A stretch of 64,000 nucleotides of DNA from Paracoccus aestuarii (GTDB taxonomy: Bacteria; Pseudomonadota; Alphaproteobacteria; Rhodobacterales; Rhodobacteraceae). The notes under the pieces were generated by a model. That model did not search any database and was not told the origin of the DNA. It was given only the letters and a program-made list of their open reading frames with translations. Of this stretch, positions 37,951 through 52,281 are shown piece after piece (within the stretch, counting starts at the first letter, position 1; each line of letters opens with the position of its first letter). The DNA lies in the NCBI RefSeq assembly GCF_028553885.1, contig NZ_CP067169.1, positions 2,529,001-2,593,000 on the forward strand, in the 5' to 3' direction. Made by a program: the position numbers and the translations under genes.

Positions 37951-38925
37951 TCATAACAAGCCAGGTTCTCCAGCCTCTGCCATGCGTATTGAGCAGCCAA
38001 AACCTTGCAGCATCCCACGAGCGTTAACTTGAAAAGTGTCTCCATGTGTCCTCAACCATTCGATAAATAGTCGCACGATCCTCCGGTTCATGTGGCGCGG
38101 GGGGCAGATGGCCCAGTAGGCCGGAAATTCGACTGCCGGAAAGGCTGTCGACATGGGCACCAGAGTGCCCTGACGCAGTTCGTCATAAGCCAGCGTCACC
38201 GAATCCAGAAGGATGCCAGCCCCGTCACAGGCCAACGGGATCGCCATCGAAGACCGGTCGAACCGTAAGGGTGCTGGCTCGTCCGGCATGTCGATGCCGT
38301 GGACTGCAAGCCATAGGTCCCACTGATATAAGGCCTTGACCGAGTGAATTAAACGCGCAGCGGCCATCTGTTCGCGAGGGTCATCAGTAAGGCGGCGCAA
38401 TTGGTCGCGGTAGTCCGGGCTGCATAATGGGAGAATGTAGTCGCTCACGATACATTCCGAGTGTAGCCCCGGCCAATTGCCAGAGCCGTAGCGCGTATCC
38501 AGATCCATCGCCTCGGTTTCGAAATCCGTGAAATCGGGCGATGCGTCGACCCTGATGCCCACGTCCGAGTTCTGATCCAAGAAATCCTTCAGCCGGGGTG
38601 TCAGCCAGCGGACGGCGAAACTGGGGCTGCTCCGCAATGACAACTGACGGCTATCGCTCTTGCGCAATACGGCCGTTCTGGCGCCACGGATCATGCGGAA
38701 AGCTGCGGTGGTGGTCTGGAACAGTCTCTCGCCGTCCAGAGTCAGCAACAGATGGCGATCTTGGCGGCGGAACAGCTTGACGCCCCACTGCTCTTCAAGC
38801 CGCTTCAGTTGCTGGCTGACGGCAGCGGTGGAGACACCAAGTTCGGCCGCAGCGTCAGTGACGCGTCCCGTGCGTGCCACGGCTTCGAAGTAGGCCAGAG
38901 AGTTCAGGTTTGGGTTGAGCGGCAT
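37951..38925 (-). CDS. LysR-family regulator (GcvA-like)
   Basis: A 324-residue regulator. N-terminal helix-turn-helix: LAYFEAVARTGRVTDAAAELGVSTAAVSQQLKRLEEQWGVKLFRR. The effector domain carries GcvA-group features (RSSPSFAVRWLTPRLKDFLDQ, MDLDTRYGSGNWPGL, PLCSPDYRD, GAGILLDS). GGAGG precedes the ATG by six bases. It lies directly downstream of the dehydrogenase gene and on the same strand, so it probably controls the TRAP/transketolase module. A T-N11-A palindrome in the dctP-transketolase gap (42873-42887) is a candidate binding site. Confidence 0.88.
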   Translation of the reverse strand: MPLNPNLNSLAYFEAVARTGRVTDAAAELGVSTAAVSQQLKRLEEQWGVKLFRRQDRHLLLTLDGERLFQTTTAAFRMIRGARTAVLRKSDSRQLSLRSSPSFAVRWLTPRLKDFLDQNSDVGIRVDASPDFTDFETEAMDLDTRYGSGNWPGLHSECIVSDYILPLCSPDYRDQLRRLTDDPREQMAAARLIHSVKALYQWDLWLAVHGIDMPDEPAPLRFDRSSMAIPLACDGAGILLDSVTLAYDELRQGTLVPMSTAFPAVEFPAYWAICPPRHMNRRIVRLFIEWLRTHGDTFQVNARGMLQGFGCSIRMAEAGEPGLL

Positions 38926-38986
38926 CGGGTCCTCCAAGACCAGAGGACTGCGGACGGAGGCGCCGGTCAAGACACCTCCGACAGCT

Positions 38987-39886
38987 TCAAGATATGCCGT
39001 TCAAGCGGCAATACGCGGCAATGACCTGGCTGTCGTCGGCAAGGCCGTTACCGAAGCCGCTCTCAGCCAGAAACATCTGGTGCGCGGCTGCCGCCAGCGG
39101 CAGCGACATGCTGAAGCCGCGCCCGGCGGCCAATGCAATGCCCAAGTCCTTAACAAAAATATCCACCGCGCTCGTCACAGGCGGCGTATCCTGCAGCATG
39201 CGCGGGCCCCGATCCCTCAGCATCCAACTGGAGGCGGCCGACCCCGACACGATCTCCAACAGGGTCGCGCCATCCACGCCGGCCTTGCGGCCAAGCGCCA
39301 GTGCCTCGCCAGCTGCTGCAAGATGGACGCCGCAGAGAAGCTGGTTGATTGCCTTGACGGTGGCGCCTTGACCGGGAGATTCGCCGACATGATAGAGCTT
39401 ATCGCCCATCACCCGCAGGACTGGCGCGATCGCATCGAAACTAGCCTTGGGCGCTGCGACCATGAGGGTCAGCGTGCCGCCCTTTGCGCCGACGACGCCG
39501 CCGGACACAGGGCAATCGATCAACTCGTGCCCTTCGGCGGCCACATCGGCAGCTAGCTGAGTGACCTGATCAGGCGGGCAAGTCGCCATCAGACAGACCC
39601 GCGCGCCCTGAGGCAGCGCGGCCAAGGCGCCGCCGGCGCGGTCGGGACCGAACAGCACGGACCGCGCCTGATCAGCGTTGACGACCATAAGCACTAGGAT
39701 GCCGGCACTGTTGCAAGCATCGGCAAGATCGGCAGGGCGGGTGCCGCCCTGCGCTGCCAGAGCGTTCATGGCGGCATCCCGCATGTCGAAGCCGCGCACC
39801 CGATGCCCCGCCTTCACGAGGTTGCTGGCCATGGGCAGGCCCATCGATCCAAGTCCAACGAAGGCAACTGTTTTTATATCGGTCAT
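38987..39886 (-). CDS. ltnD: NAD(P)-dependent beta-hydroxyacid dehydrogenase, L-threonate-dehydrogenase-like
   Basis: A 299-residue enzyme of the 3-hydroxyisobutyrate dehydrogenase family. Rossmann motif FVGLGSMGLPMASNL near residue 9, substrate loop DCPVSGGVVGAKGGTL, catalytic Lys region GQGATVKAINQLLCGVHLAA, and the C-terminal helix SAVDIFVKDLGIAL. The QLLCGVHLAAAGEAL and SSWMLRDRGPRML segments resemble LtnD, which oxidizes L-threonate or related four-carbon sugar acids. It lies in line with dctM (7 bases) and upstream of the LysR gene. The exact substrate is not certain, so the symbol is tentative. Confidence 0.75.
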   Translation of the reverse strand: MTDIKTVAFVGLGSMGLPMASNLVKAGHRVRGFDMRDAAMNALAAQGGTRPADLADACNSAGILVLMVVNADQARSVLFGPDRAGGALAALPQGARVCLMATCPPDQVTQLAADVAAEGHELIDCPVSGGVVGAKGGTLTLMVAAPKASFDAIAPVLRVMGDKLYHVGESPGQGATVKAINQLLCGVHLAAAGEALALGRKAGVDGATLLEIVSGSAASSWMLRDRGPRMLQDTPPVTSAVDIFVKDLGIALAAGRGFSMSLPLAAAAHQMFLAESGFGNGLADDSQVIAAYCRLNGIS

Positions 39887-39893
39887 GGTGGCC

Positions 39894-41153
39894 TCAGTAG
39901 AGCGTGAAGGCGGGGACGTAGGACATCAGGATCAGGACGGTGAAGGCGACTAGGTAGAACGGCCAGAGCTCCTTCACGACGACACCGATCGGAACGCGCG
40001 CAATGGCCGCGCCGATGAAGAGTGTCGTGCCAATCGGGGGAGTGAAGAGTCCGATGGATAGGTTGATGCAGATCATCACGCCCATCTGAATTGGATCCAT
40101 ACCGATGGCCCCGCCGATGGCGACGAAGGTCGGGCCCAGCAGCAGGATCGCGGCAGGAAGATCTAGAAACATCCCGATGACCAGCATGATGATGTTCATC
40201 ATCAGGATAATCAGCACCGCAGCGCCGAGGGTGTTCTGCGCCCACTGGGCGACGAGCGTCGGTATCCGCTCCGTGATCAGCACATGGCCAACCAAGCTAG
40301 ACGCGGTGATCACCAACATCACCACGCCGGTGGTAATGACCGTGCCGACAAGTGCATCCTTGATCCGGGCGAGCGTCAGGTCGCGATAGATAAGCGCACT
40401 GACAACGAGTGCATAGAAGACGGCGATGACGCTGACCTCCGTCGGGGTGGCGATACCAGCGCGCAGCAGGATAATGATGAAGAACGGCATGGCAAGCGCA
40501 GGCGCTGCAGAAATGACCGAGTTCAGGTAGCCCTTGAATTGCGAGCGGTCGGTCAGGCGGGGAAAGCCGCGAAGCCGCCCCGAGAGGTAGCAGACCAGCA
40601 TGAAGCCGAAGGCCAACATGATCCCAGGCAGGATGGCGGCGGTAAAGAGCGCTGCAATCGAGGTGTTCGAGACCGTCGAATAGAGGATCAGCGGGATCGA
40701 CGGAGGGATAAGGCCTGCAATGGTCGACGACGATGCCGTCACAGCGGCTGCGAAGCCGGGCGGATACCCCTCGCGCTTCTGCCACGGAATCAGCATCGAT
40801 CCAAGCGCGGAGGCCTCAGCCACGGCCGAACCCGACACGCCGCCGAAGATCGTAGAGCCGACGACCGTCACTTGCCCCATGCCGCCGTGGAAACGACCGA
40901 CCATGGCGGCTGCGAAGGCCACCAGCTTCTGCCCAAGCGTGCCCGACATCATCAGCGAGCCGGAGAGGATGAAGAACGGGATCGCCAGCAGCGGAAAGCT
41001 TTGGGTGGGCTGGAACAGCTTGACCACGGCCAGAACGGTCGGCGTGCTGCCCTGCCACAGGATTGCGGTGCCCGAAGCGACGATCAGCGCGTATCCGACC
41101 GGCACCGACAGCACCAGCATGATCGCGAAGAGTCCGGTCATCACGGCGGTCAT
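39894..41153 (-). CDS. dctM: TRAP transporter large permease (DctM-like)
   Basis: A 419-residue inner-membrane protein with about twelve hydrophobic helices, the ion-coupled translocating subunit of a TRAP uptake system. Family segments visible: SVPVGYALIVASGTAIL, FPLLAIPFFILSGSLM, VGSTIFGGVSGSAVAEASALGS, TASSSTIAGLIPPSIPLILY, and FLDLPAAILLLGPTF. It overlaps the small-permease gene by four bases (ATGA), so translation is coupled. The order binding protein, small permease, large permease is standard. Confidence 0.93.
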   Translation of the reverse strand: MTAVMTGLFAIMLVLSVPVGYALIVASGTAILWQGSTPTVLAVVKLFQPTQSFPLLAIPFFILSGSLMMSGTLGQKLVAFAAAMVGRFHGGMGQVTVVGSTIFGGVSGSAVAEASALGSMLIPWQKREGYPPGFAAAVTASSSTIAGLIPPSIPLILYSTVSNTSIAALFTAAILPGIMLAFGFMLVCYLSGRLRGFPRLTDRSQFKGYLNSVISAAPALAMPFFIIILLRAGIATPTEVSVIAVFYALVVSALIYRDLTLARIKDALVGTVITTGVVMLVITASSLVGHVLITERIPTLVAQWAQNTLGAAVLIILMMNIIMLVIGMFLDLPAAILLLGPTFVAIGGAIGMDPIQMGVMICINLSIGLFTPPIGTTLFIGAAIARVPIGVVVKELWPFYLVAFTVLILMSYVPAFTLY

Positions 41154-41716
41154 GTCATATGCTCCGTCTCAGTCTGGTCGAGAGTGCTTGGATCGGCGGC
41201 GAAGAACACGCGCATCGCGTTGGCGAGTGAGGCAACCGAGATACCGCCGAAACCGAACAGCATCGAGGTATAGGCCCAGGCCTGACCTAGCCCGGTGATC
41301 GGGAAGACCTGGGCCCGGGTGATCTGGATGACGCCAAGCGACAGCCAAGCCAGGGATGCGAAGACCCCTGCGACCATCAGGTGGATCAGGACCATCAGAA
41401 CTCGCAGCTGAGTGCGGGACAGCTGGCCACGGATGAATTCTGCAGCGATGTGGGCGCCGCGGTTTGCACCCACAACGATGCCTCCCATGATCAGCCATGG
41501 AAACAGGATATTCGGCACCTCATTGGGCCAGCCGAGGCCAGAAGATGTGAAATAGCGCACGAACACTTCAGCCATCAGGGCGAGGAAAATGACAACCACC
41601 GCGGAGGTAGCGATCACGACGGCGATGCGGTCAAGCGCCAGCCCGACCGCATTGGCGATGCGCAAGGCGGGAGGATCCGCCTTACTGTTGCTCATGGGGC
41701 CGCGCGCCGCTTCCAT
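41150..41716 (-). CDS. dctQ: TRAP transporter small permease (DctQ-like)
   Basis: A 188-residue membrane protein with four hydrophobic helices (about residues 22-44, 60-78, 97-119, 140-162), the accessory subunit joined to DctM. Family marks are FVRYFTSSGLGWPNEVPNILF and GANRGAHIAAEF. The ATG used abuts the stop of the binding-protein gene (TAGATG); a second ATG seven codons on, giving MSNSKADPP, is equally plausible. Confidence 0.88.
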   Translation of the reverse strand: MEAARGPMSNSKADPPALRIANAVGLALDRIAVVIATSAVVVIFLALMAEVFVRYFTSSGLGWPNEVPNILFPWLIMGGIVVGANRGAHIAAEFIRGQLSRTQLRVLMVLIHLMVAGVFASLAWLSLGVIQITRAQVFPITGLGQAWAYTSMLFGFGGISVASLANAMRVFFAADPSTLDQTETEHMT

Positions 41717-42691
41717 CTATTGGCTCGCAGCCTGTGCGGCGGCGACGACTTCTTCCAGCAGCTCGGGGAACTGGGCGCGCCACTTTTCATAGACGGGCTG
41801 CGTCGCCTCGATGAAGGGTGCGGTGTCGACCTCGTTGAAGGCGACGCCGGCGTTCTCCATTTCGTTTTTCAGCGACACGGTCTGCTCGCGGACCATCTGG
41901 CGGTTCAGCTCGGCCGCCTCTGCGGCCGCTTCGCGGATGATCTGCTGATCTTCCGGCGACATCGTGTCCATGATGATCTTCGAGGCCAGCAGCGGCGTCG
42001 ATTCATATTTGTGCGCCGTCATCGAGATATAGGGCTGCACCTCATACAGTTTGGACGAGTGGATGTTGATCAGCGGATTTTCCTGCCCGTCGACCACGCC
42101 CTGCTGCAGCGCGATGTAGAGTTCCGAAAATGCCATCGGCGTGGGCGAGGCACCGAGCGCCGTGAAGATGTCGATGGTCATCGGATCGGGAGGTGTGCGG
42201 ATCTTCATACCGGCCAGATCTGCGGGTGTGTTGATCGGCCCTCTCGAATTCGAGACTTCGCGGATGCCGTTGTTCCACCAAGCCAGCACGACAAGACCCT
42301 GCACCTCGGCCGCAGCCTCAATCTTGTCGCCGACCGGGCCGTCCATCACGGCCTCGGCCTGGTCGAGGTCCTGGAACAAGAAGGGCAGTCCAAGCAGCGC
42401 CATTTCAGGAACAATTGCCGACGTTGCGCCCTGCGAGTTGGCAGAAAATGCAACCGTTCCAAGGCGCATGTTAGTGAGCGTTTCAGAATCGTCGCCAAAT
42501 TGAGCCGCGCCGCCAACATCAATATTCAGGCGTCCGTCGGATTTCTCGGAAACAAGTTCAGCGAACCTTTCAGAAGCTACGGCCTTGGGATTGCCTGCTG
42601 CCGCATTGTGTGAAAGCTGGAAATTCTGCGCCGCGACCGGCCCCGCGCAAAGCGTGATCGCGGTTGCAGCAAAAAGATGACGAAGTTTCAT
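41717..42691 (-). CDS. dctP: TRAP transporter substrate-binding protein (DctP-like)
   Basis: A 324-residue periplasmic protein with signal peptide MKLRHLFAATAITLCAGPVAAQ. The mature part NFQLSHNAAAGNPKAVASERFAELV matches the DctP family; the conserved Arg of the carboxylate clamp lies in PADLAGMKIRTPP, and ALQQGVVDGQENPL is the typical latch region. GGGAGGGG precedes the ATG. A 16-bp palindrome lies just upstream. Ligands of this family are usually organic or sugar acids, which agrees with the neighbouring threonate-dehydrogenase-like enzyme and transketolase. Confidence 0.92.
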   Translation of the reverse strand: MKLRHLFAATAITLCAGPVAAQNFQLSHNAAAGNPKAVASERFAELVSEKSDGRLNIDVGGAAQFGDDSETLTNMRLGTVAFSANSQGATSAIVPEMALLGLPFLFQDLDQAEAVMDGPVGDKIEAAAEVQGLVVLAWWNNGIREVSNSRGPINTPADLAGMKIRTPPDPMTIDIFTALGASPTPMAFSELYIALQQGVVDGQENPLINIHSSKLYEVQPYISMTAHKYESTPLLASKIIMDTMSPEDQQIIREAAAEAAELNRQMVREQTVSLKNEMENAGVAFNEVDTAPFIEATQPVYEKWRAQFPELLEEVVAAAQAASQ

Positions 42692-42711
42692 GTGGCCCCT
42701 CCCAGAGCTGT

Positions 42712-42727
42712 TGCTGTTCGAACAGCA
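42712..42727. promoter_or_regulatory. 16-bp perfect palindrome upstream of dctP
   Basis: TGCTGTTCGAACAGCA reads the same on both strands and lies 21 bases before the dctP start, next to the ribosome-binding site. Its size and place suit a repressor operator. It does not have the T-N11-A form of LysR sites, so it might bind a second regulator not in this window. Function is inferred. Confidence 0.4.
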
Positions 42728-42872
42728 GAATGCCAAGCCCCCTGCCATGCGATCCTCTTTGGCACTTCTGCCAAGTGCGCTTCCACGCATAAGATCGACT
42801 GTCTGTGATGGGGCTGAGCGTCCTCCTCGCTCGGCTAACGTAGAACCTGACCGATTCGCGCCTCTGCGTCAC

Positions 42873-42887
42873 CTAAGCTATGCTTAG
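42873..42887. promoter_or_regulatory. LysR-type T-N11-A palindrome
   Basis: CTAAGC-TAT-GCTTAG is a perfect interrupted palindrome containing T-N11-A, the LysR consensus. It sits in the 292-base divergent gap between dctP (minus) and the transketolase gene (plus), the expected place for a regulator of both arms. The nearest LysR gene is the GcvA-like one at the end of the minus-strand operon. No gene is seen in the gap. Confidence 0.5.
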
Positions 42888-42983
42888 CAAGTTCGTAGAT
42901 TAACTTAATTGATCCGGCGCCGGTTTGGCCGTTCCTAGGAGGCGCCGCGGGTCTCGGTATGACCTGCCGCTGGAGGAGGAATC

Positions 42984-43841
42984 ATGCAAAATGAGAGCTC
43001 GGCAGCGACGCTGTCGAACACCAGTCTTGCACGCCGCGCGTGGGAAATCCGCCGCAAGGCCGTTCGTATGGGCGAAGTGCAGGGACAAGGCTATGTTGGA
43101 CAGGCCCTGGGCGTCGCGGACGTGCTTGCGGTCTCGTATTTTCACGCCCTGAACTATCGGCCCACCGATCCCGAATGGGAGGGACGTGACCGGTTTCTGC
43201 TATCCATCGGCCACTACGCCATCGCGCTTTACGCCGCGCTGATCGAGGCACGGATTCTGCCCGAAGCTGAACTGGAAACATACGGCGCGGACGACTCCCG
43301 CCTGCCCATGTCGGGCATGGCCGCATACACGCCAGGTATGGAGATCACCGGCGGATCGCTGGGACATGGTCTGGGTATCGGCGTCGGCATGGCCATGGGC
43401 CTGAAGGCCAAGAAGAACCCGGCCTTCGTCTACAACCTTATGTCGGACGGCGAGCTAGGCGAAGGCTCGACTTGGGAGGCCGCAATGTCGGCGGCTCATC
43501 ACAAGCTGTCGAAACTGATCTGCATCGTCGATTTCAACGACCAGCAGGCCGACGGCAAGTCGACCGAAACGCTGACCGCCGAACCTCTGGCCGATAAATG
43601 GGCCGCTTTCGGCTGGCACGTCCAGCGCGTGGACGGCAACGATATCCAGGCGCTGGTCGCGGCATTCGACGCCGCCCGTAACCTGGAGGATGACCGTCCC
43701 CGCGTCATCGTCTGCGACACCGTCATGTGCAAGGGCGTGCCCTTCCTGGAATCGCGCGAGATCACGCATTTCGTTCGTGTCGAATCCGACGAATGGCAAA
43801 AGGCCCTTGCGGTCCTAGACGACAACAAGCCGGAGGAGTGA
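42984..43841 (+). CDS. Transketolase, N-terminal (ThDP-binding) subunit
   Basis: A 285-residue half-transketolase. It contains GYVGQALGVADVLAV, DRFLLSIGHYAIALYA, ITGGSLGHGLGIGVGMA and the ThDP/Mg2+ motif SDGELGEGSTWEA (GDGxx type, about residues 152-160) with DFNDQQADG. GGAGGAGG lies before the ATG. It ends six bases before the C-terminal subunit gene, and the two subunits together form an active transketolase, the usual split form in catabolic clusters. In this context it probably moves a two-carbon unit to or from an unusual sugar. Confidence 0.9.
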   Translation: MQNESSAATLSNTSLARRAWEIRRKAVRMGEVQGQGYVGQALGVADVLAVSYFHALNYRPTDPEWEGRDRFLLSIGHYAIALYAALIEARILPEAELETYGADDSRLPMSGMAAYTPGMEITGGSLGHGLGIGVGMAMGLKAKKNPAFVYNLMSDGELGEGSTWEAAMSAAHHKLSKLICIVDFNDQQADGKSTETLTAEPLADKWAAFGWHVQRVDGNDIQALVAAFDAARNLEDDRPRVIVCDTVMCKGVPFLESREITHFVRVESDEWQKALAVLDDNKPEE

Positions 43842-43846
43842 GGACC

Positions 43847-44887
43847 ATGACCATCCAGCACCGTTACGACCCGCACCGCAAATGGGAGCCTCGCCAGCCC
43901 GGCACCGGCGGGGGCAAGACCTCGGCCATGATCGCCTCGCTTGCGGCCGAAGGCTATGATGCAGTGCCCGCGCCCTTCGGCCATGCCCTTGTCAAAGAGG
44001 CTAAGAAGAACGACCGCATCGTCGGCCTGACGGCGGACCTGGCGAAATACACCGATCTGCACATCTTCGCAAAGGCGTTCCCGGATCGCTTCTACCAGAT
44101 GGGCATGGCCGAACAGGTGATGGTGTCCGCCGCCGCCGGCATGGCGCGCGAAGGCTTCATTCCTTTTGCCACTACCTATGCCGTCTTCGCCAGCCGTCGC
44201 GCCTATGACTTCATCGCCATGGCCATCGCCGAGGAATACCTGCCGGTCAAGATCGTCTGCGCCCTGCCTGGCCTGACCACCGGCTACGGGCCCAGCCACC
44301 AAGCGACTGAGGATCTGGCGATCTTCCGCGGCCTGCCCAACCTGACCATCGTGGACCCCTGCGACGCCATCGACGTCGCCGAGGCCGTGCCCGCCATCAC
44401 CGCCCATCCCGGACCAGTCTACATGCGCTTGCCGCGCGGCAACGTCCCGTCCGTGATCCGCAAGCACTGCCTCGACTACAAGTTCGAATTGGGCAAGGCA
44501 AAGCTGCTGCGCGACGGATCGGACGCCCTGATCATCTCGTCCGGCTTCATGACCATGCGTGCGCTAGATGCGGCGGTCGCGATGGAAACGGAAGGCACCT
44601 CTGTCGCAGTGCTACATTGCCCCACGATCAAGCCCCTGGATACCGAAACCATCCTTGCCGAAGCCGGCAAGTCGCGCCGTTTGGTCGTCACAGCCGAAAA
44701 CCACACGGTCGTGGGCGGCCTGGGCGAGGCAGTGGCATCGACGCTACTGACCAATGGCGTGACGCCGCAGTTCCGCATGATCGGCCTGCCGGACCAATTC
44801 CTGGACGCGGGTGCGCTGCCTTCGCTGCACGATCGCTACGGCATTTCTACCGACGCCATTATCCGCCAAGTCCGCGGCTGGCTTTAA
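43847..44887 (+). CDS. Transketolase, C-terminal subunit
   Basis: A 346-residue protein with the central pyrimidine-binding domain (FYQMGMAEQVMVSAAAGMAREGFIPFATTYAVF, containing the catalytic Glu of the ThDP site) and the C-terminal transketolase domain (DALIISSGFMTMRALDAAVAM... VVTAENHTVVGGLGEAVA). The N-terminal extension with PGTGGGKTSAM is polar. The ATG follows the N-terminal subunit's stop by five bases and has GAGG upstream. It pairs with the preceding gene. Confidence 0.9.
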   Translation: MTIQHRYDPHRKWEPRQPGTGGGKTSAMIASLAAEGYDAVPAPFGHALVKEAKKNDRIVGLTADLAKYTDLHIFAKAFPDRFYQMGMAEQVMVSAAAGMAREGFIPFATTYAVFASRRAYDFIAMAIAEEYLPVKIVCALPGLTTGYGPSHQATEDLAIFRGLPNLTIVDPCDAIDVAEAVPAITAHPGPVYMRLPRGNVPSVIRKHCLDYKFELGKAKLLRDGSDALIISSGFMTMRALDAAVAMETEGTSVAVLHCPTIKPLDTETILAEAGKSRRLVVTAENHTVVGGLGEAVASTLLTNGVTPQFRMIGLPDQFLDAGALPSLHDRYGISTDAIIRQVRGWL

Positions 44888-44910
44888 CTCTCTAAGGGGG
44901 GAGGAACACA

Positions 44911-45669
44911 ATGACTACAGCACTTCTCGACGGCCAGTATGCCGTTATTACCGGCGCCGCGTCCAAGCGCGGCCTCGGCCTCGCCACCGCACGGCTGTTT
45001 GCCAAGCACGGCGCTACCATCGCGATCCTGGACCTAGACCAGGATGCCGCCAAGGCGGCGGCCGCTGAGCTAGGCAAGAACCACATCGGCATGGCCTGCA
45101 ACGTCATCGACCATGACGGCGTAAGGCAGATGATGGACGCGTTGATCCAGAAATGGGGCCGGGTCGACATCCTGGTCAATAACGCGGGCATCACGCAGCC
45201 GCTGAAAATCATGGATATAAGCGCCAAAAACTACGAGGACGTTCTGGACGTGAACCTGCGCGGCACGCTTTATTGCAGCCAGGCCGTGATTCCGACCATG
45301 CGCGAGAACAAGTCAGGCAGTATCGTCAACATGTCGTCCGTGTCGGCGCAGCGCGGCGGCGGCATCTTCGGGGGGCCGCATTACTCGGCGGCAAAGGCTG
45401 GCGTTCTGGGTCTGACCAAGGCGATGGCCCGTGAGCTGGCGCCCGACAACATCCGCGTCAACGCAATCTGCCCTGGTTTCATTGCCACCGACATCACCGC
45501 TGGCAAGCTGACGAACGATATGCAGTCTAGCATCAACGCCGGCATCCCGATGGGCCGGCCAGGAACGGCCGACGAAGTTGCAGGCTGCGCGCTGTTCCTG
45601 GCCTCCGACCTATCGGCCTATGTCACCGGCTCTGAGGTGGACGTGAACGGCGGCTCGCTCATCCACTGA
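44911..45669 (+). CDS. SDR-family oxidoreductase
   Basis: A 252-residue short-chain dehydrogenase. NAD(P)-binding motif VITGAASKRGLGLATA near residue 12-27, NNAG (NAGITQPL), catalytic Ser in NMSSVSAQRGG, the active-site YSAAK, and the C-terminal CPGFIATDIT and GSEVDVNGGSLIH. GGGGGGAGG lies before the ATG. It is the third gene of the plus-strand arm after the split transketolase and probably oxidizes or reduces a sugar or sugar acid of the same pathway. The substrate is not known. Confidence 0.9.
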   Translation: MTTALLDGQYAVITGAASKRGLGLATARLFAKHGATIAILDLDQDAAKAAAAELGKNHIGMACNVIDHDGVRQMMDALIQKWGRVDILVNNAGITQPLKIMDISAKNYEDVLDVNLRGTLYCSQAVIPTMRENKSGSIVNMSSVSAQRGGGIFGGPHYSAAKAGVLGLTKAMARELAPDNIRVNAICPGFIATDITAGKLTNDMQSSINAGIPMGRPGTADEVAGCALFLASDLSAYVTGSEVDVNGGSLIH

Positions 45670-45744
45670 TACTCTTCCGGCTCGAATGACCGGGGCAGTA
45701 GCCAGAACAGGACGGCAATACTCCAACTACCCCGAAGCGCCTTG

Positions 45745-45875: not shown

Positions 45876-48164
45876 TTACTCGTCCACATCTCGAAAAAGG
45901 TTAAAAAGAATTGCGTTCTGCGGAGTAGATGTAGCGACTGGTGCCGAGGTGGACGACTGCGGCTCATAGTGTTCCTCCATTTCCTCAACCGCGCGGCGGA
46001 CCTCTCGGTGCAAAATGGGAATAGGATCTGGACGCCGGGCTTCCGTTGCCGCTCGTCCTACAGCACTACTTATTGTTCGAATCGCTGTTTCAAGTGGGTA
46101 GAAATAATCGTCAGGAGGATAGTCACTTGACCAACCTTGTCGCATTTCTTTCACGTAGTGAGGAATATTAGTCAGCACTTTGTCCCGGGCAACTACAACC
46201 GCTTCCTGCATTTCTTCCCTCGTGAGGAGAGTCTCGACGAAGCCGGTTTCAAATATGCTTGGATCTGCTTCGTCCTCAAGTGCCTGGAGTAGCTTGGCCG
46301 CTAGGTGATTGCGCCAATCACTGGGCAAAACCTTTTGCCGATGCAGACTCGTTAGGAGGCTCGCATCGGCATCTTCATGGATGGGAGATGAAAAACTCTG
46401 GGCACCATCGAGAATATCAGGCCTTCGCGTCAGTATCATCTCTGAGAACGCGGCATTAGAACGGTAAGACACGAAAGTCCGAAGGAAGTTAACTGGCAAC
46501 TTTGCAATCCTTTCAAAAAGAAGTTCGTTCAAATTTGTGGGAACTACCATAGGCGCGCCTTGGATCGTCACACCGGCACACACGACAGCGTATAAGATCG
46601 CTTCCGGCTTTGCTCCGCGAAGATAGAGTTCGACGAGCTCTGGAGACTGAGAGAGGTAGCGCGCAAAGGCGTCACTCACAGTGGGATGTTTGTATGTCCA
46701 ATAGGAACCGTGCTCGTCTTGTGCCAATAGCAAAAGGCTGCCGTTTAGAGTCTGCAACTCGCGCCGCGCTGCGGCTTCCGTGCTGCCAAATGCACTAACT
46801 GACGTTGACATAACCGAAGAGGTCACGGGAGAACGGACAATTCCGCCGTTGAGAAATATTGTCGCAATCGCAGCTTTGCAGTCATCAGAAAGATTGGAAA
46901 TGGTGTCGAGAAGAAATTGCTCCGGTCTGTCGAAAAAGCCAAAAACGTCAGCCTGCTTAACCCTTAGATCCCCTGCAAAGAATCGCGCGCCGATCCGACG
47001 TGCAGTCTCCGGGAGGAAGCCTTTTCGCTCAACTATAGCAGGGAGAAACTCCTTGATCGCAGATTTAAATTTCTGATCCTGATCGCCAAATTTAAGATGA
47101 TTATAAAGAATTTGGGCCTTTTCGGCGGTGCTCAGTTGCTGGACGTCAATGACAACTTGGCTCGTTCTAAGCACCGGAATGGCCTGGAGCTTGAGGTCCG
47201 ACTGAGCCGCCTTCCAAATGTAGTCGCGTGATGTGATTAGAAATCGGGTGCCACGCTTCATTGCTCCTTGCATAAGCACGAATACCTGATTCCATGCCTC
47301 TGCCGTTTGGCGCTGATACTGGGTGTTCCCCCACGCATCATCGATCCAGAAAAACTGCGCAACATCAGGGCTTAGATGCCGCTGCACGTCTTCTGGTGAT
47401 GTGGCTCGTATTGTCGAGCTCCTCCATATATCTGCCGCGCCAACGGCGATGCTCGCGCCTATAGTTGATTTTCCTGCTGCAGGAGGGCCGAGTAGGAGCA
47501 CGACATTGTGTTGACTGATCGCTCGCACACTTCGGCGATGAGCCTCGGTGACAACAAGCCGCTGCAAATCCTCACCCATGGCGCTGAGGATCAACTGAGC
47601 CTGAGCATAAGCGCGCGCATCGAGCACATCGTTCAAATCGCCAAGCCCATAGAGACGTGGGGCCATCATTCGGAGGCGGGAAGAAGTGCGTATCTGTCTG
47701 TTGATAAATTCGCTGCCGAAAATACGGCATCGACCAACCCCGACGCCTTGAAACGCGGCACGGATAGCGAGCTCGCTTTCGCCGGTGATAGCATGATTAG
47801 TCAATATAACGTAGTCATGGGCCAGCCCCTTCTTGGCAAGTCGTTCAGCCTTGGCAAGTTCATCGCGCAGCATCGAGAGGCTTAGATTATTGGCTTCCTT
47901 TGAGGTGAACTTGCATTGAATTGTTGATTCACCGGCGGCGGGATCGTCCCCTTCCCAACGACCTACAAACGCCCCATCACGTCCTGCATCGTTGCCGGGT
48001 AGAAAGTTCTGGACCGGCCGGCGAAGGCACTCTTCAGCCACCCCGACGCAGAGATCTTGAAAAGCCTTCCAACCTAGTTTGTGCAAAGGGTAATCGCCAG
48101 CGACCGCCCGAAGAGTTGCGGCCGTGCTAACCTTGGGCCGTGTAGGTTCGACTTTTTTTGACAT
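45876..48164 (-). CDS. Nuclease-linked nSTAND-type NTPase, probable defence protein
   Basis: A 762-residue protein with two recognisable parts. Residues about 25-150 resemble a restriction-endonuclease-like (PD-(D/E)xK, Mrr-type) domain: LGWKAFQDLCVGVAEECL, NDAGRDGAFVGRW and TIQCKFTSKE give an Asp63...Gln-Cys-Lys85 active site. Residues about 200-420 are a STAND-like P-loop ATPase: VVLLLGPPAAGKSTI (226-233), FFWIDDAWG (Walker B), RFLITSRDY (sensor). A helical C-terminal sensor part follows, rich in short repeats. This layout resembles nSTAND3 antiphage proteins related to Avs systems, though it is shorter. It has its own AT-richer composition, and an ABC-type ATPase gene lies 261 bases upstream. 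Defence activity is inferred. Confidence 0.75.
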   Translation of the reverse strand: MSKKVEPTRPKVSTAATLRAVAGDYPLHKLGWKAFQDLCVGVAEECLRRPVQNFLPGNDAGRDGAFVGRWEGDDPAAGESTIQCKFTSKEANNLSLSMLRDELAKAERLAKKGLAHDYVILTNHAITGESELAIRAAFQGVGVGRCRIFGSEFINRQIRTSSRLRMMAPRLYGLGDLNDVLDARAYAQAQLILSAMGEDLQRLVVTEAHRRSVRAISQHNVVLLLGPPAAGKSTIGASIAVGAADIWRSSTIRATSPEDVQRHLSPDVAQFFWIDDAWGNTQYQRQTAEAWNQVFVLMQGAMKRGTRFLITSRDYIWKAAQSDLKLQAIPVLRTSQVVIDVQQLSTAEKAQILYNHLKFGDQDQKFKSAIKEFLPAIVERKGFLPETARRIGARFFAGDLRVKQADVFGFFDRPEQFLLDTISNLSDDCKAAIATIFLNGGIVRSPVTSSVMSTSVSAFGSTEAAARRELQTLNGSLLLLAQDEHGSYWTYKHPTVSDAFARYLSQSPELVELYLRGAKPEAILYAVVCAGVTIQGAPMVVPTNLNELLFERIAKLPVNFLRTFVSYRSNAAFSEMILTRRPDILDGAQSFSSPIHEDADASLLTSLHRQKVLPSDWRNHLAAKLLQALEDEADPSIFETGFVETLLTREEMQEAVVVARDKVLTNIPHYVKEMRQGWSSDYPPDDYFYPLETAIRTISSAVGRAATEARRPDPIPILHREVRRAVEEMEEHYEPQSSTSAPVATSTPQNAILFNLFRDVDE

Positions 48165-48262
48165 ATTGACTTGGTGCCTTTAGTCGCTGGTCTGATAATT
48201 AAATGCTGGCGGGTCAACAGGCATTTTTTATAAGGAAAGTGATTCCATCCTAATCATTTCAA

Positions 48263-50425
48263 CTAGAGCGCTTTAACCTCACTGTAGATTTTCCGTAGGT
48301 GCTCGTCTGACATGTCCAGGATCGGCTCATACATGAAGGAGTTCAAATGAATGTTCTCCGGTGTCATAAGGACTACGCGGTCAATGGTCCGGATAGCAGC
48401 ATCGCCTGGGAAATCATTCCGGAAGCGCCTCAAGAGTTCCGTCGTCTGATTGCCGGTTATGCCGGCTAGCAGGCCCTGGTCATTGATCCGCCCGAGCATA
48501 TACTGTTCTGCGCGTAGCCTTGTGGCAACCGAGAGAACGATCTTGTTTTCGAAATTGGCAGCGTCTCCGTCTTGTAGGCAGGCGTCCGCTTCATGATAAA
48601 TCAAGTCAAGCACAGAACCTCCTGACGGTGTAGCGTTCACTGGTGCGGTGCCGAAGATGGTCTGGTATACTTCAAAGAGATTACTGTCTTGGACGGTAGG
48701 CGTGCCATCCTTGACGTGAAGGAGCGACGTCAACGTCACGTAGTTCGGGTCGGTTTCGCCTTTGGTGTATTCCACCAAGTTTCTCATAAAAGGGATTGAC
48801 GCAATGCGTTTTCTCGGGTCGCTTCCGAAATGCACCTTCCAGTCATTGACAAAGACGTTCTTGATCCCGACTGCCTTGTTGATCTCGATGCCTTGTTCAT
48901 TTCTTGCGACCATGAAGCACGAATTGTAGCTGACGAAACGGCTTTGAATTGTCCTGAAGAAATCGAAGTTGTGGGTGAGGATGACCTGTCGAAAATTATC
49001 TTCTTCTGAGATATCTTTCAAATACTGGATAATCGCATACTTGTTCTTGTAGTCGAACGAATCAGCAATATCGTCGACGACAATTAGCGTTTTTTGACCT
49101 GCCTTTCGCCGTGCCTCAATCTCGAAGATGATGTTCAGGATGTAGAAGGCTCTGCGTTCGCCCGTGCTGAGCACATCAAGGAGGGCATCCTTTTCGACGT
49201 CCTTCCGATCATTGCCTTCTTTGAAAGTGAACCCCAACTTCGGAATCTTGTCCTCGTCGAGCACAACTGAGACGAGATTTTTTACCTTGAGCTCAAATGG
49301 GACGAAGAAGCGATCGTTGAAAATCTCTATTACCTCTTGCCATGCCGTCCGTTCACTACGGGCAGCTTCCTCGATCTGTTTCCTGCGTTCCGCAGCGGCG
49401 CAAATTTCTTTGACCAGATGACTAAAGGCATCCCGGTGTTTTACAAAGTAGCTCTTCCAAACCCGCTCCTTAAAGTTTGCGATGTTCTCCAAGGCTGGAA
49501 GAACATCTTCATGGTTGGCAACGAACTCGTTGAACTCCCTGACGTTGGCATTCTTGTGGAGCAGTTTCTCGACTGCGTTGAATTTTTTGCGCAAAGCGGC
49601 ATCTGAAGTAATGCCCTCTTTCTCGCCTTTAACCAACTGCTCGAGTTGCTTCCTCGACGTGATTTCGACCTTCTCACCAGAGTTTAGGCTAATGCTGTGT
49701 GCGGCATCAAAAAAACCATTGTCAGCGAGGGTTTTTGCGATCACATCAGCGTTATAATAGGTGAAAGTCCCGCGCTTGAAATACTGGGACTGGTCGATGA
49801 GTTCGTTGAAGCGCTTGATGTAGTCTTCGAGTGCCTCCCGCACCTGCTCCTGTTGAAGCATCTCAACAACCTTCGGGTCGAAAACGAGATCGTATGGGAT
49901 CTCGGCGAATGGAGCTTCCGGCTGCTCGTCTACTTCCGCAGCGACGCGATGTATTGCGATGAGGAACTGATCGGCGGTCTTGGTGAACGCCAACGAGATT
50001 TCGGCGGCGATGTCCTTCTTTGACCCTGACTGATCCTTGAGTGCCGCGAGAAGCACCTTCTTCGCGTCTTCGATGCCTTCGTTGAGTTTCTGGTGCTCTT
50101 TTCGAAGTTCTGAATTGACGAGAAGGATGGAAGTCTTTTCGCTGCTCCCGAAGTCCTCATCGTAGGGCCGAATGATCAGGACAGATTCTGGGTCTAGTTC
50201 GGCACCGTTCTCGTCTAGCACCGATCGTTTCGTAAGGCGGTCTGGGAACATCTTGTCGGACGACTGCTTCTTGTTGGCGATGTCCTGGAACGTTTTTGCA
50301 AGGGATGATTTCATGGCTCCGTTTGGTGCGTATAGAGCAACGGCCTTGCATTTCCTGAAATCGAAAGACTGCTCCAGCTTTCGAATTCCATAGCAATATT
50401 CCAAGTCTAGCTTAAGCGCGCGCAT
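48263..50425 (-). CDS. ABC-type AAA ATPase with degenerate P-loop, probable defence protein
   Basis: A 720-residue protein of the AAA_13/PrrC-RloC-like ABC ATPase group. Its Walker A is unusual: LYAPNGAMKSSLAKTF (residues 31-46) replaces the normal GxxGxGK with PNGAMK. Other ABC parts are intact: signature LSTGERRA (419-426), Walker B TLIVVDDIADSFD (446-458) and switch His in VILTHNFDFF (481-490). A long helical insertion (about 100-400) is likely coiled coil. The last 220 residues match nothing I recognise and could be the effector. The ATG follows AGAGGG; a TTG eight codons earlier is less likely. It is monocistronic and AT-richer than the core, next to another defence-type gene. Confidence 0.75.
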   Translation of the reverse strand: MRALKLDLEYCYGIRKLEQSFDFRKCKAVALYAPNGAMKSSLAKTFQDIANKKQSSDKMFPDRLTKRSVLDENGAELDPESVLIIRPYDEDFGSSEKTSILLVNSELRKEHQKLNEGIEDAKKVLLAALKDQSGSKKDIAAEISLAFTKTADQFLIAIHRVAAEVDEQPEAPFAEIPYDLVFDPKVVEMLQQEQVREALEDYIKRFNELIDQSQYFKRGTFTYYNADVIAKTLADNGFFDAAHSISLNSGEKVEITSRKQLEQLVKGEKEGITSDAALRKKFNAVEKLLHKNANVREFNEFVANHEDVLPALENIANFKERVWKSYFVKHRDAFSHLVKEICAAAERRKQIEEAARSERTAWQEVIEIFNDRFFVPFELKVKNLVSVVLDEDKIPKLGFTFKEGNDRKDVEKDALLDVLSTGERRAFYILNIIFEIEARRKAGQKTLIVVDDIADSFDYKNKYAIIQYLKDISEEDNFRQVILTHNFDFFRTIQSRFVSYNSCFMVARNEQGIEINKAVGIKNVFVNDWKVHFGSDPRKRIASIPFMRNLVEYTKGETDPNYVTLTSLLHVKDGTPTVQDSNLFEVYQTIFGTAPVNATPSGGSVLDLIYHEADACLQDGDAANFENKIVLSVATRLRAEQYMLGRINDQGLLAGITGNQTTELLRRFRNDFPGDAAIRTIDRVVLMTPENIHLNSFMYEPILDMSDEHLRKIYSEVKAL

Positions 50426-50681
50426 GGATTGCCCTCTATTAACTTTCAACTTGGAGATTACCGCCCATCGTCTGGTTCGGACAAGGAAAACGGGCTTAGA
50501 GACCGCAGATATGGTAAGTCAGTTGCAGAAGGCTGGCAATGTGATCACCTTTCGTGCGCTAGCAAGTAAATCGAAATAGCGGTCATTCGTGTTACTGTGC
50601 AGCGAGTGTCGGCTTCCCGCCTTCTACGCCGGGGAAATGCTCATCAGGGCTCGGACAGGTTGAGTGTCTGCTTTCGGCCTA
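50426..50681. other. Intergenic; left half of a repeat split by IS1182
   Basis: No gene is seen. The part near 50655-50681 (GAGTGTCTGCTTTCGGCC) continues on the far side of the IS1182 element as TCGGCCCATAGCGGCC, so the element sits inside a copy of the dispersed repeat. Confidence 0.4.
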
Positions 50682-52281
50682 GGCTGTGTGGAAACGCCGG
50701 CGCATGCTGGCATCCAAGGGCATCTGACGCGAAGATCTGACTTGAGTTTGGCGAAGTGCAGACAGACCACATGGAGCGGCGCCTTTCATGCCTTCAGAGC
50801 GCTCATCAACCCGCGGACCCCGATCAGCGCCACCATCCGCTTGATGTTGTAGGCGAGGACGTTCAGCGCGATCTCTGTTTTCACATTCCTCAGGCGTTGG
50901 GTCAGAAAGTGGGACGTGCCCATCCACGCCTTGATGGTGCCAAACGGGTGCTCGACCGTGCCTCGGCGGATTGTCATCGGTTCGGTCGGTCCGATCAGCC
51001 TCGCCCGCGCCGCCTCGACCAGATGCTCGTGCGCCCACCTTGTGATCCGGCGCTCCTTGCCGGTCGTGCATGGCGATTTCATCAGGCACGTGCCGCACTC
51101 GCCGGTCCAGTAGCGGCGGAGTTCCAAGCCGTCTTCCTCGGTCGTGTAGCGATACGGTAGCGCTTCCCCTGCGGGACAACGATAGATATCCGCGTTGGCC
51201 TTATAGGCGAAGTCCGCCTTCTCATACATGCCCTTGAGGCGGTTGCCCGACGTCTCGGGGCGCGGGATCGTCGTGGTGATTCCAGCTTTGTGACAGGCCA
51301 GGATCTGCCGCCCGCTGAAGTAGCCCTTGTCGGCCAGCACATGCATCTCGTCGCGACGGAGTGCATCCTTGGCCGCCTTTGCCATCGGCACCAGAAGATC
51401 ACGGTCATGACCCTGGTTGGTGACTTCATGCGCGACGATCAGGTGGGTCTCGGTGTCGACGGCGGTCTGGACATTGTAGCCGACCATTCCGCTGTTCCGG
51501 GCGCTGGTGGCCATGGCGCGGGCATCGGGATCGGTCAGAGATATCTGCCCATCCGGCGCATCGGCCAAGGCCCGAGCCATGGCTTGCAGGTGTTGGATAT
51601 GCTGCCGGATACGCCCGTAACGCTTGGCCAGATGCGCGACCTTCTCAGCCCGAACCTCGCCCTCCTCCTGTCGATCGACCCGCACCATCTCCGCGATGTA
51701 GCGCTCGACGTCCACCTCCAGGTGGGCAATGCGGCTGGCGATCTTGCCCTTGGTGAAGTTGCGGTCCCGGCTGTTGACGGCCCGGAACTTGCTCCCGTCG
51801 ATGGCAACGCAGGCGCCTTTCAGCACGCCGATCCGGCGGCTCAACTCCACGAATTGGGCGCAGCTGCGGCGGATGCCGGGACCGTTGTCACGCCGGAAGT
51901 CGGCGATGGTCTTGTGGTCTGGGACAAGGCGGCCGGTCAGCCACATCAGCTCGACGTTCCGCCCGGCTTCGCGTTCCAGCCTCCGGCTGGACGGGATCCG
52001 GTTCAGATAGCCGTAGATGAACAGCTTGAGCAGCACGGCAGGATGATATCCGGGTCGCCCCGTCCGCGCCGGCGACGATCGCGCAAATCCGAGCGCAGGC
52101 AAATCGAGTTCATCGACGAACAGATCAACCACCCGAACCAGGTGATCCTCGCCAATCCAGTCCTCAAGACGATCTGGAAAAAGAGCCGTCTGTCCCCGCG
52201 CAGTCCCTTCGATGAAACCCGACATGCCGATCTCCCGCCACCATGTCTAAGTCTACCATAAGGCCGAGTTTCCACACAGCC
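50682..52281 (-). mobile_element. IS1182-family insertion sequence
   Basis: A 1600-bp element with 14-bp inverted ends GGCTGTGTGGAAAC, carrying one intact transposase on the minus strand. The flanks TCGGCCTA (left) and TCGGCCCA (right) match at seven of eight bases and look like a target duplication or repeat-derived homology. It is inserted in copy F of the dispersed repeat, between the ABC ATPase gene and the copper module. Confidence 0.85.
50786..52225 (-). CDS. IS1182-family transposase
   Basis: A 479-residue DDE transposase. The N-terminal part reads FIEGTARGQTALFPDRLEDW and GRPGYHPAVLLKLFIYGYLN, then VPDHKTIADFRRDNG, CVAIDGSKFRAVNSR (first Asp), VLADKGYFSGRQI (second Asp), and TIRRGTVEHPFGTIKAWMG (Glu region of the HxE type). 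Length and motifs are complete, so it is likely active. A Cys-rich stretch (CPAGEA, CGTCLMKSPC) near residue 370 is normal for the family. Confidence 0.93.
   Translation of the reverse strand: MSGFIEGTARGQTALFPDRLEDWIGEDHLVRVVDLFVDELDLPALGFARSSPARTGRPGYHPAVLLKLFIYGYLNRIPSSRRLEREAGRNVELMWLTGRLVPDHKTIADFRRDNGPGIRRSCAQFVELSRRIGVLKGACVAIDGSKFRAVNSRDRNFTKGKIASRIAHLEVDVERYIAEMVRVDRQEEGEVRAEKVAHLAKRYGRIRQHIQHLQAMARALADAPDGQISLTDPDARAMATSARNSGMVGYNVQTAVDTETHLIVAHEVTNQGHDRDLLVPMAKAAKDALRRDEMHVLADKGYFSGRQILACHKAGITTTIPRPETSGNRLKGMYEKADFAYKANADIYRCPAGEALPYRYTTEEDGLELRRYWTGECGTCLMKSPCTTGKERRITRWAHEHLVEAARARLIGPTEPMTIRRGTVEHPFGTIKAWMGTSHFLTQRLRNVKTEIALNVLAYNIKRMVALIGVRGLMSALKA

Follow-up and report, generated by a model that had tools for sequence, protein, structure and literature searches.

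Introduction

Among the described systems closest to the operon considered here, AptAB is a split transketolase that acts on apulose 4-phosphate, the L-threonate/erythronate pathway comprises LtnD, OtnI, OtnK and OtnC, and the sulfo-transketolase pathway for sulfoquinovose carries its transketolase, SqwGH, in a degradative operon. The operon itself lies in a 64,000-nucleotide stretch of the Paracoccus aestuarii genome (contig NZ_CP067169.1, positions 2,529,001 to 2,593,000); this whole stretch is the window, and coordinates below follow its numbering. It holds eight complete open frames in two divergent arms: a LysR-family regulator, a dehydrogenase of the HIBADH (beta-hydroxyacid dehydrogenase) family and the TRAP transporter genes DctM, DctQ and DctP on the minus strand, and the two transketolase subunits, TKA and TKB, followed by a short-chain dehydrogenase/reductase (SDR) on the plus strand. 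We think it about an even bet (probability roughly 0.5) that this operon has moved horizontally and supports growth on a sugar acid, which the SDR would oxidize and from which the split transketolase would then remove two carbons.

In its construction, the transketolase resembles the split-gene enzyme of Carboxydothermus hydrogenoformans (6yaj/6yak), which has the same two-chain build and gives each part its highest-scoring solved match (207 and 225 bits). By alignment, however, that enzyme retains the equivalents of R358, S385, H461 and D469, all of which are replaced in the window's family, and it is described as retaining H100 as well (PMC7661550, cited, like the other articles given here by PMC number, from excerpts). 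The excerpted text of the same article restricts split transketolases to archaea and certain thermophilic bacteria; in contrast, transketolases of the window's type occur in many mesophiles.

AptAB, located in Escherichia coli SE15 by the locus tags given in PMC13001218, is likewise a split transketolase in a carbohydrate operon. Yet AptA and AptB are only 35% and 31% identical to TKA and TKB, as against 67-78% for eight other records, and do not cluster with them. Their partners are an ABC importer and an FGGY kinase, whereas here they are a TRAP transporter and an SDR, joined in some relatives by a DhaK-type kinase; neither an apulose kinase nor a D-apiose ABC importer is among the eight operon genes. 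With the L-threonate/erythronate pathway the operon shares a HIBADH-family dehydrogenase, a probable acid substrate and relatives of its binding protein, but the dehydrogenase falls below the LtnD cut-off and the operon is without a kinase or aldolase. A DUF1537 kinase and a class II aldolase are absent from the eight operon genes, no genome-wide search for them having been made. The likeness to the sulfo-transketolase pathway is a transketolase in a degradative operon; we associate no other gene of the operon with sulfo-sugars, and we set the two apart by gene content, not by sequence. An earlier note on this DNA, made from the sequence alone, had judged that the apiose and threonate pathways fit only in part, and these comparisons agree with it.

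Results and Discussion

The split transketolase and its active site

TKA (42984-43841, plus strand) is the N-terminal, thiamine diphosphate (ThDP)-binding subunit (Transketolase_N, PF00456, 145 bits), and TKB (43847-44887, plus strand) carries the Pyr and C domains (Transket_pyr, PF02779, 123 bits; Transketolase_C, PF02780, 88 bits), so that the domains of the transketolase superfamily are all present above cut-off. For both parts the best family model is transketolase (212 and 238 bits). TKB lies in a different reading frame from TKA and has its own ATG, and the two are in separate frames at all 101 loci compared (the window and 100 fetched loci, 80 of the latter from named genomes); the split is genuine.

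The active site departs from that of the pentose-phosphate enzyme (EC 2.2.1.1). We compared 100 orthologue rows of at least 60% identity (80 loci of named genomes and 20 others, some genomes being represented twice), using the numbering of E. coli K-12 TktA, checked on locus L168. The catalytic Glu and His residues E411, H66, H261 and H473 are retained in every row. Of the phosphate ligands R358, S385, H461 and R520, only R520 is kept, in 100/100 rows: S385 is replaced by Tyr and H461 by Leu throughout, and R358 is gone in 98 rows and kept in two. Nor are the donor and acceptor residues conserved, D469 being deleted, H26 replaced by Tyr and H100 by Ser in all 100 rows, although the alignment of the H100 loop (LPMSG for PGHP) is less sure than that of the other positions. 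Tyr385, Leu461 and the D469 gap recur in all eight annotated records aligned; of the changes, H461L, the D469 gap and H26Y extend to five weaker relatives, but S385Y does not. Judged by these residues, the split transketolase forms a distinct subfamily.

Several of the same positions have been altered in the laboratory, by S385Y/D469T/R520Q (PMC5073344) and R358I/H461S/R520Q (PMC12016104), and S385Y is the identical change. Unlike those variants, the window's family keeps R520, deletes D469 instead of replacing it with Thr, and changes H26 and H100 as well. In the excerpted account of PMC5073344, the E. coli lineage shifted from phosphorylated to non-phosphorylated and finally to aromatic aldehydes, and Tyr at position 385 is described as clashing with the phosphate group of phosphorylated sugars; PMC12016104, citing Wang 2022, gives a 55.3% rise in the activity of the R358I/H461S/R520Q variant on 5-keto-gluconate, yielding tartaric semialdehyde. 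The overlap with these variants favours a non-phosphorylated substrate, and we believe that the transketolase probably takes one. The earlier note had reasoned that the enzyme must act either on a sugar phosphate made elsewhere or on a non-phosphorylated substrate; the active site favours the second branch. In a scheme where formaldehyde is the acceptor, PMC12016104 also adds a glycerone kinase, and its keto acid, phosphate-site-altered transketolase and dihydroxyacetone (DHA) kinase are the same parts as the SDR, TKA-TKB and DhaK-type kinase found together in some relatives.

Probable transport of a small acid

The DctP/DctQ/DctM set is complete and retains the carboxylate-binding Arg/Arg/Asn, as expected of a TRAP transporter. 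The large permease DctM (39894-41153, minus strand) scores 403 bits on TIGR00786 (cut-off 268), the small permease DctQ (41150-41716, minus) 80 bits on Pfam DctQ, and the substrate-binding protein DctP (41717 to about 42691, minus) 284 bits on TIGR00787; the listed frame of DctP begins at 42790, and its start is placed near 42691 because a signal-peptide-like MKLRHL... begins at about residue 34. The solved proteins closest to the window's DctP are 4p47, 4p9k, 4x8r, 4nq8, 7bbr and 4pdh, and those closest to its orthologue at locus L055 are 4p9k, 4p47, 4pdh and 4x8r; we take 4p9k and 4pdh to be among the structures that hold pantoate or erythronate. As excerpted, PMC11668362 lists 4x8r with glucuronate, 7bbr with 2-keto-3-deoxy-gluconate, 4P47 as ligand-free, and further homologues with pantoate or erythronate. 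Residue roles in TRAP binding proteins were taken from the same article, and equivalents of 4P47 Arg152, Arg173, Asn213, aromatic 196 and acidic 76 were identified by eye in DctP, from the alignment of the L055 orthologue and the window's open frame. To judge from these relatives, the ligands are all small acids, with no single one favoured.

At the Klebsiella and Pantoea loci inspected, a major facilitator superfamily (MFS) protein takes the place of the TRAP transporter; its best family is the D-galactonate transporter, at 250 and 346 bits, below the cut-off of 395. Since two unrelated carriers are both of acid-transport kinds, the evidence points to an acid as the imported substrate.

The proposed pathway

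Partner genes were counted in the best 80 of 584 loci from a scan of named genomes, 19 of them close to the window and 61 broad. Most counts come from tblastn with defined queries and cover the fetched stretches only, some of which are ended by contig ends; open reading frame (ORF) calling by length and GC left some antisense shadow frames. The most constant partner is the SDR (44911-45669, plus strand; Pfam adh_short_C2, 242 bits), found in 77 of the 80 loci at 55% identity or more, and the common core is an acid transporter, an SDR and the split transketolase. From the company its gene keeps, not from its own family, we infer that the SDR is an aldonate dehydrogenase.

The general pathway that we infer, in its substrate class, the reaction of each enzyme and the order of steps, would then be as follows. 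A small polyhydroxy carboxylate, of the C4-C6 aldonate type, would be imported by the TRAP transporter and oxidized by the SDR to a keto-aldonate ending in HOCH2-CO-. The ThDP-dependent split transketolase, its phosphate-binding residues mostly replaced, would remove the terminal two-carbon unit from this non-phosphorylated keto acid and transfer it to an aldehyde; what remains would be an aldehyde acid shortened by two carbons. Side enzymes would clear the products: here the HIBADH-family dehydrogenase, and in some relatives an isomerase and DhaK-type kinase, a 2-hydroxyacid dehydrogenase or an aminotransferase. A phosphorylated acceptor is disfavoured by Tyr385, and DHA as an obligatory product by the frequent absence of Dak1 described below, though FGGY kinases could stand in.

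Several findings weigh against this pathway. AptB also lacks the equivalents of R358 and H461 although AptAB uses a sugar phosphate, and loss of the phosphate site alone is thus no proof of a non-phosphorylated substrate. The retained R520, or an invariant Lys that precedes Tyr385 in the orthologue rows, could grip a phosphate or a carboxylate. The SDR clears the cut-off of broad models alone, namely PRK07231 'glucose 1-dehydrogenase' (237 bits, cut-off 215) and a FabG subfamily (224, cut-off 222), falls below cut-off on gluconate 5-dehydrogenase (184 against 279) and KduD (177 against 369), and finds its best solved match in 7krk (311 bits), filed as a 3-oxoacyl-ACP reductase. The accessory genes of relatives point to no single product: an isomerase with DhaK suggests DHA or erythrulose, and a 2-hydroxyacid dehydrogenase with glycerate kinase a C3 acid. 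The laboratory S385Y was selected for aromatic aldehydes, the step at which it entered the lineage (PMC5073344), not for sugar acids. Finally, a search of openly licensed PMC literature by titles and abstract openings, a weak negative, found no publication on the operon and no enzyme or binding data or substrate for the family. One lead is a Rhizobium leguminosarum cluster that looks related, likened by its gene descriptions: as excerpted, PMC3333776 describes an SDR (RL2725) there beside two transketolases (RL2718-19); in the alfalfa rhizosphere RL2719 and RL2725 go up, as do the transporter genes RL2720-2 on arabinogalactan.

If the proposed pathway is correct, it represents a further logic for breaking down sugar acids, in addition to the routes by dehydratase, kinase-aldolase and decarboxylase; nature would have come upon an active-site change that directed evolution of transketolase has produced as well, and the family would offer ready-made enzymes for biocatalysis on non-phosphorylated, perhaps acidic, substrates. 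We would tentatively go further, at somewhat worse than even odds, and propose a natural, widespread transketolase family specialized for non-phosphorylated keto-aldonates, with S385Y as in the laboratory-evolved enzyme, by which mesophilic Proteobacteria would use sugar acids along a kinase-free 'oxidize, then transketolate' route. The substrate may be a common acid of plants or algae still awaiting assignment, given that the module occurs in rhizobia, marine Alphaproteobacteria, Klebsiella and Pantoea records and a few E. coli genomes.

Conservation and probable horizontal transfer

The nearest locus among those listed is that of Paracoccus sp. WLY502 (L053), to which window positions 37953-45681 align at L053 4116-11833 with 82% DNA identity over 7,743 columns. 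The corresponding protein identities are 93% for TKA and 95% for TKB, and this excess over the DNA argues that the module is under purifying selection. The gene order recurs across Alphaproteobacteria and also in Halomonas and Marinobacter, which is far beyond chance.

TKB at 65% identity or more is present in 23 of the 198 family genomes drawn, and four more carry only a relative of about 40% (27/198 in total); no TKB match came from the only further genome of this genus in the draw. At class level, matches at 1e-90 occur in 13 of 385 genomes. Plasmid records matching at 1e-30 number 384, with identity below 60% in 195. In a tree of 84 rows, whose bootstrap had not fully settled, the window falls in a clade of 20 (100/99) mixing Paracoccus and Rhizobiales, and five other Paracoccus rows are placed outside it, a pattern that fits horizontal movement of the operon.

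The TKA and TKB of Klebsiella, Pantoea and Bradyrhizobium are 67-71% identical to the window's, and the Klebsiella SDR-TKA-TKB DNA is matched in 5 of 5,426 E. coli genomes, with an MFS gene in front in both that were inspected. Reduced modules are found on a Sulfitobacter plasmid (TKA-TKB-SDR-TRAP-LysR, among mobile genes), in a Klebsiella record (LysR/MFS-SDR-TKA-TKB) and in Pantoea (LysR/SDR-MFS-TKA-TKB). This Klebsiella record, of K. pneumoniae (L159, NZ_OP378648.1), is labelled as a plasmid, but the module has chromosome-like neighbours there (ybhQ family, rhlE, dinG), and the record is possibly mislabelled or an integrated piece.

An isomerase and a DhaK-type kinase in relatives

The alignment to L053 ends 12 bases past the SDR stop (45670-45681), and the L053 operon continues with a PF01261 TIM-barrel isomerase, from L053 11871, and a DhaK-DhaL kinase. 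The isomerase is present in all 19 close loci and in 9 of the 61 broad ones. With L053 proteins as queries, neither gene was found in the window's genome (3.68 Mb, 10 contigs), and the same queries match the isomerase in 7 of 8 and the kinase in 8 of 8 other genomes, the query's own included. The Dak1 family likewise has no match in the window's genome and matches in 3 of 14 control genomes. Because homology stops so soon after the SDR and neither gene was found in the genome, it is most likely, on this comparison, that the window's copy has lost a 3' isomerase-kinase pair.

The earlier note had found neither kinase nor aldolase in the set, which is borne out by the families shown for the eight proteins (for LysR and the SDR, the best 25 families only), and had proposed comparing genomes for missing partners. 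Such partners exist in the closest relatives and are absent here, but across the family the kinase seems dispensable. The note's author would have abandoned the reading on meeting homologous clusters with an added kinase and a described substrate: clusters with a DhaK-type kinase do occur (23 of 80 loci, as 14 of the 19 close and 9 of the 61 broad, the adjacent kinases falling in two subfamilies about 40% identical), and a described substrate was not found. We considered DhaK as a missing core kinase and rejected it as a rule for the family, Dak1 being present in 8 of 23 transketolase-positive and 64 of 175 negative family genomes (Fisher p = 1). Fifteen of the 23 positive genomes have no Dak1 match (two of the 23 are only 81-83% complete), and the reduced modules stand alone; for these reasons the kinase seems not to be core to the pathway across the family. 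The isomerase is enriched and rare (3/23 positive against 2/175 other genomes, p = 0.012).

The reaction of the isomerase could not be read from its fold, since the model (mean pLDDT 91) matches Art22, D-tagatose/psicose 3-epimerases, IolI and UlaE about equally, and no NCBIfam model matched the isomerase of relatives. In only two scanned loci (L105 and L142) do relatives of erythrulose-phosphate isomerases, TPI and an RpiB (233 bits, DerI cut-off 240), stand beside the isomerase-kinase pair; in Aestuarium, the pair sits between a DeoR-TPI-RpiB group and the split transketolase. From loci with the isomerase apart from the transketolase (L143-L145), no clear pathway emerged. In Paracoccus gahaiensis (L087:8161-8973, minus strand), the isomerase stretch has an in-frame stop and may be decaying, and on a Shinella plasmid (L137:803-6211) the module adjoins a BKACE-family enzyme and a pair of DhaK-type kinases, of which one is fused to a sugar-binding regulator.

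Alternative explanations

A kinase would also be unnecessary if the two carbons from the keto-aldonate went to glyceraldehyde 3-phosphate, giving xylulose 5-phosphate. This would explain the 15 of 23 positive genomes without Dak1 and the kinase-free reduced modules, and R520 is retained in every row; AptAB, for its part, suggests that handling of a phosphate need not depend on the usual residues. The invariant Tyr385, said in PMC5073344 to clash with phosphate, speaks against it, and we consider this acceptor unlikely. The module could alternatively serve a branched-sugar route of the apiose/apionate type, in which a branched ketose or keto acid would be split, in the manner of AptAB, to DHA or hydroxypyruvate; AptAB is split in the same way, DHA from unphosphorylated apulose would explain DhaK, and clusters on Rhizobium and Aminobacter plasmids add a sugar ABC importer and an amidohydrolase, the scanned one being a distant fuconolactonase relative (104 bits, cut-off 400). 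We find this rather improbable, given the low identity to AptA and AptB, the retention in AptA of the H26 and H100 equivalents lost in the window's family, the absence of an FGGY kinase from the operon, and the presence of a TRAP transporter instead of an ABC importer.

Less probable again, in our view, is a reaction of DXS-like or decarboxylating type with a donor that lacks a C1 hydroxyl, such as a 1-deoxy ketose or a 2-oxo acid. H100 is replaced in every row, and H100F and H100L raise pyruvate use in another transketolase (PMC7661550); TKB reaches 187 bits on the dxs model (cut-off 466) and shares its D469 gap with DXS, and some neighbourhoods hold FAH hydrolase and fuconolactonase relatives of deoxy-sugar pathways. 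The best model of both parts remains transketolase, however, and only a minority of loci have such neighbours: ORF calling puts the FAH cluster in 8 of 101, and the amidohydrolase is in 7 of 80. The explanation to which we give least weight is a crippled remnant: the isomerase and kinase, present in the nearest relative, are not found in this genome, candidate defence genes lie at the junction, and the pathway might no longer run in this strain. Against this, the eight frames are intact and conserved far above the DNA level, many other genomes carry the module without isomerase and kinase, and three FGGY kinase matches lie elsewhere in the genome. We continue to prefer oxidation of a sugar acid followed by two-carbon removal as the function of the operon.

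Accessory and neighbouring genes

All genes claimed in the earlier note (LysR, beta-hydroxyacid dehydrogenase, TRAP, two-part transketolase and SDR) are present as full open frames, the LysR gene lying just outside the span it had drawn from 38987. Its description of the module as threonate-dehydrogenase-like does not hold as a hallmark. The HIBADH-family dehydrogenase (38987-39886, minus strand; NAD_binding_2 and NAD_binding_11) has L-threonate dehydrogenase (LtnD, NF043037) as its best NCBIfam model, at 294 bits against a cut-off of 350, scores 199 bits on tartronate semialdehyde reductase (cut-off 341), and is found in 17 of 19 close but only 3 of 61 broad loci; it is a sub-clade accessory, and hence does not define the module.

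Other accessories, suggestive of products with three or four carbons, are a D-2-hydroxyacid dehydrogenase in 8 of 80 loci (a ninth row being a 25% match), an aminotransferase in 8, the amidohydrolase already mentioned, and a glycerate kinase in 3. The SDR of Azospirillum lipoferum is accompanied by a full-length transketolase, a 2-hydroxyacid dehydrogenase and a glycerate kinase. A full-length transketolase accompanies the split one in 19 of 80 loci (for example L111:5569-7557), and has R358 replaced by Ile in 23 of 27 rows, which take in loci beyond the 80, and S385 by Pro in 26 of 27, with H461 kept; by these residues it is a second non-canonical transketolase family. The window's genome has, elsewhere, one full-length transketolase and a third, weak match of another kind. 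We examined whether the isomerase or DhaK and the second transketolase exclude one another: they overlap in 1 of 80 loci (p = 0.0009), but with p = 0.15 within the 61 broad loci the pattern may reflect lineage only. A DRL_cat (DXR-like) oxidoreductase and an FAH hydrolase, the latter at 384 bits against a cut-off of 500 on a deoxy-rhamnonate hydrolase model, occur with a different TRAP type near the split transketolase (L047:7097-8437, L051:12210-13055, other loci of the L041-L052 group, L122 and L125), perhaps as a sister pathway for another acid.

The LysR-family protein (37951-38970, minus strand; Pfam HTH_1 and LysR_substrate) is GcvA-like (235 bits on that subfamily, below the cut-off of 288), has a relative of at least 38% identity in 63 of 80 loci, and is the likely regulator of the divergon, where it would control both arms. 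Its candidate operator is a perfect inverted repeat, CTAAGC-TAT-GCTTAG, of the T-N11-A type at 42873-42887 in the divergent promoter region. The pattern, derived from the window, recurs without mismatch in WLY502 and with at most three mismatches in 16 of 81 upstream regions (the window included), against none of 81 internal stretches.

Directly past the end of homology, at 45876-50449 (minus strand), lie two genes with matches to models of candidate anti-phage systems, PDC-S73 at 114 bits and PDC-S46 at 918 bits, and a transposase-like ORF, named by eye, lies beyond them at 50786-52225.

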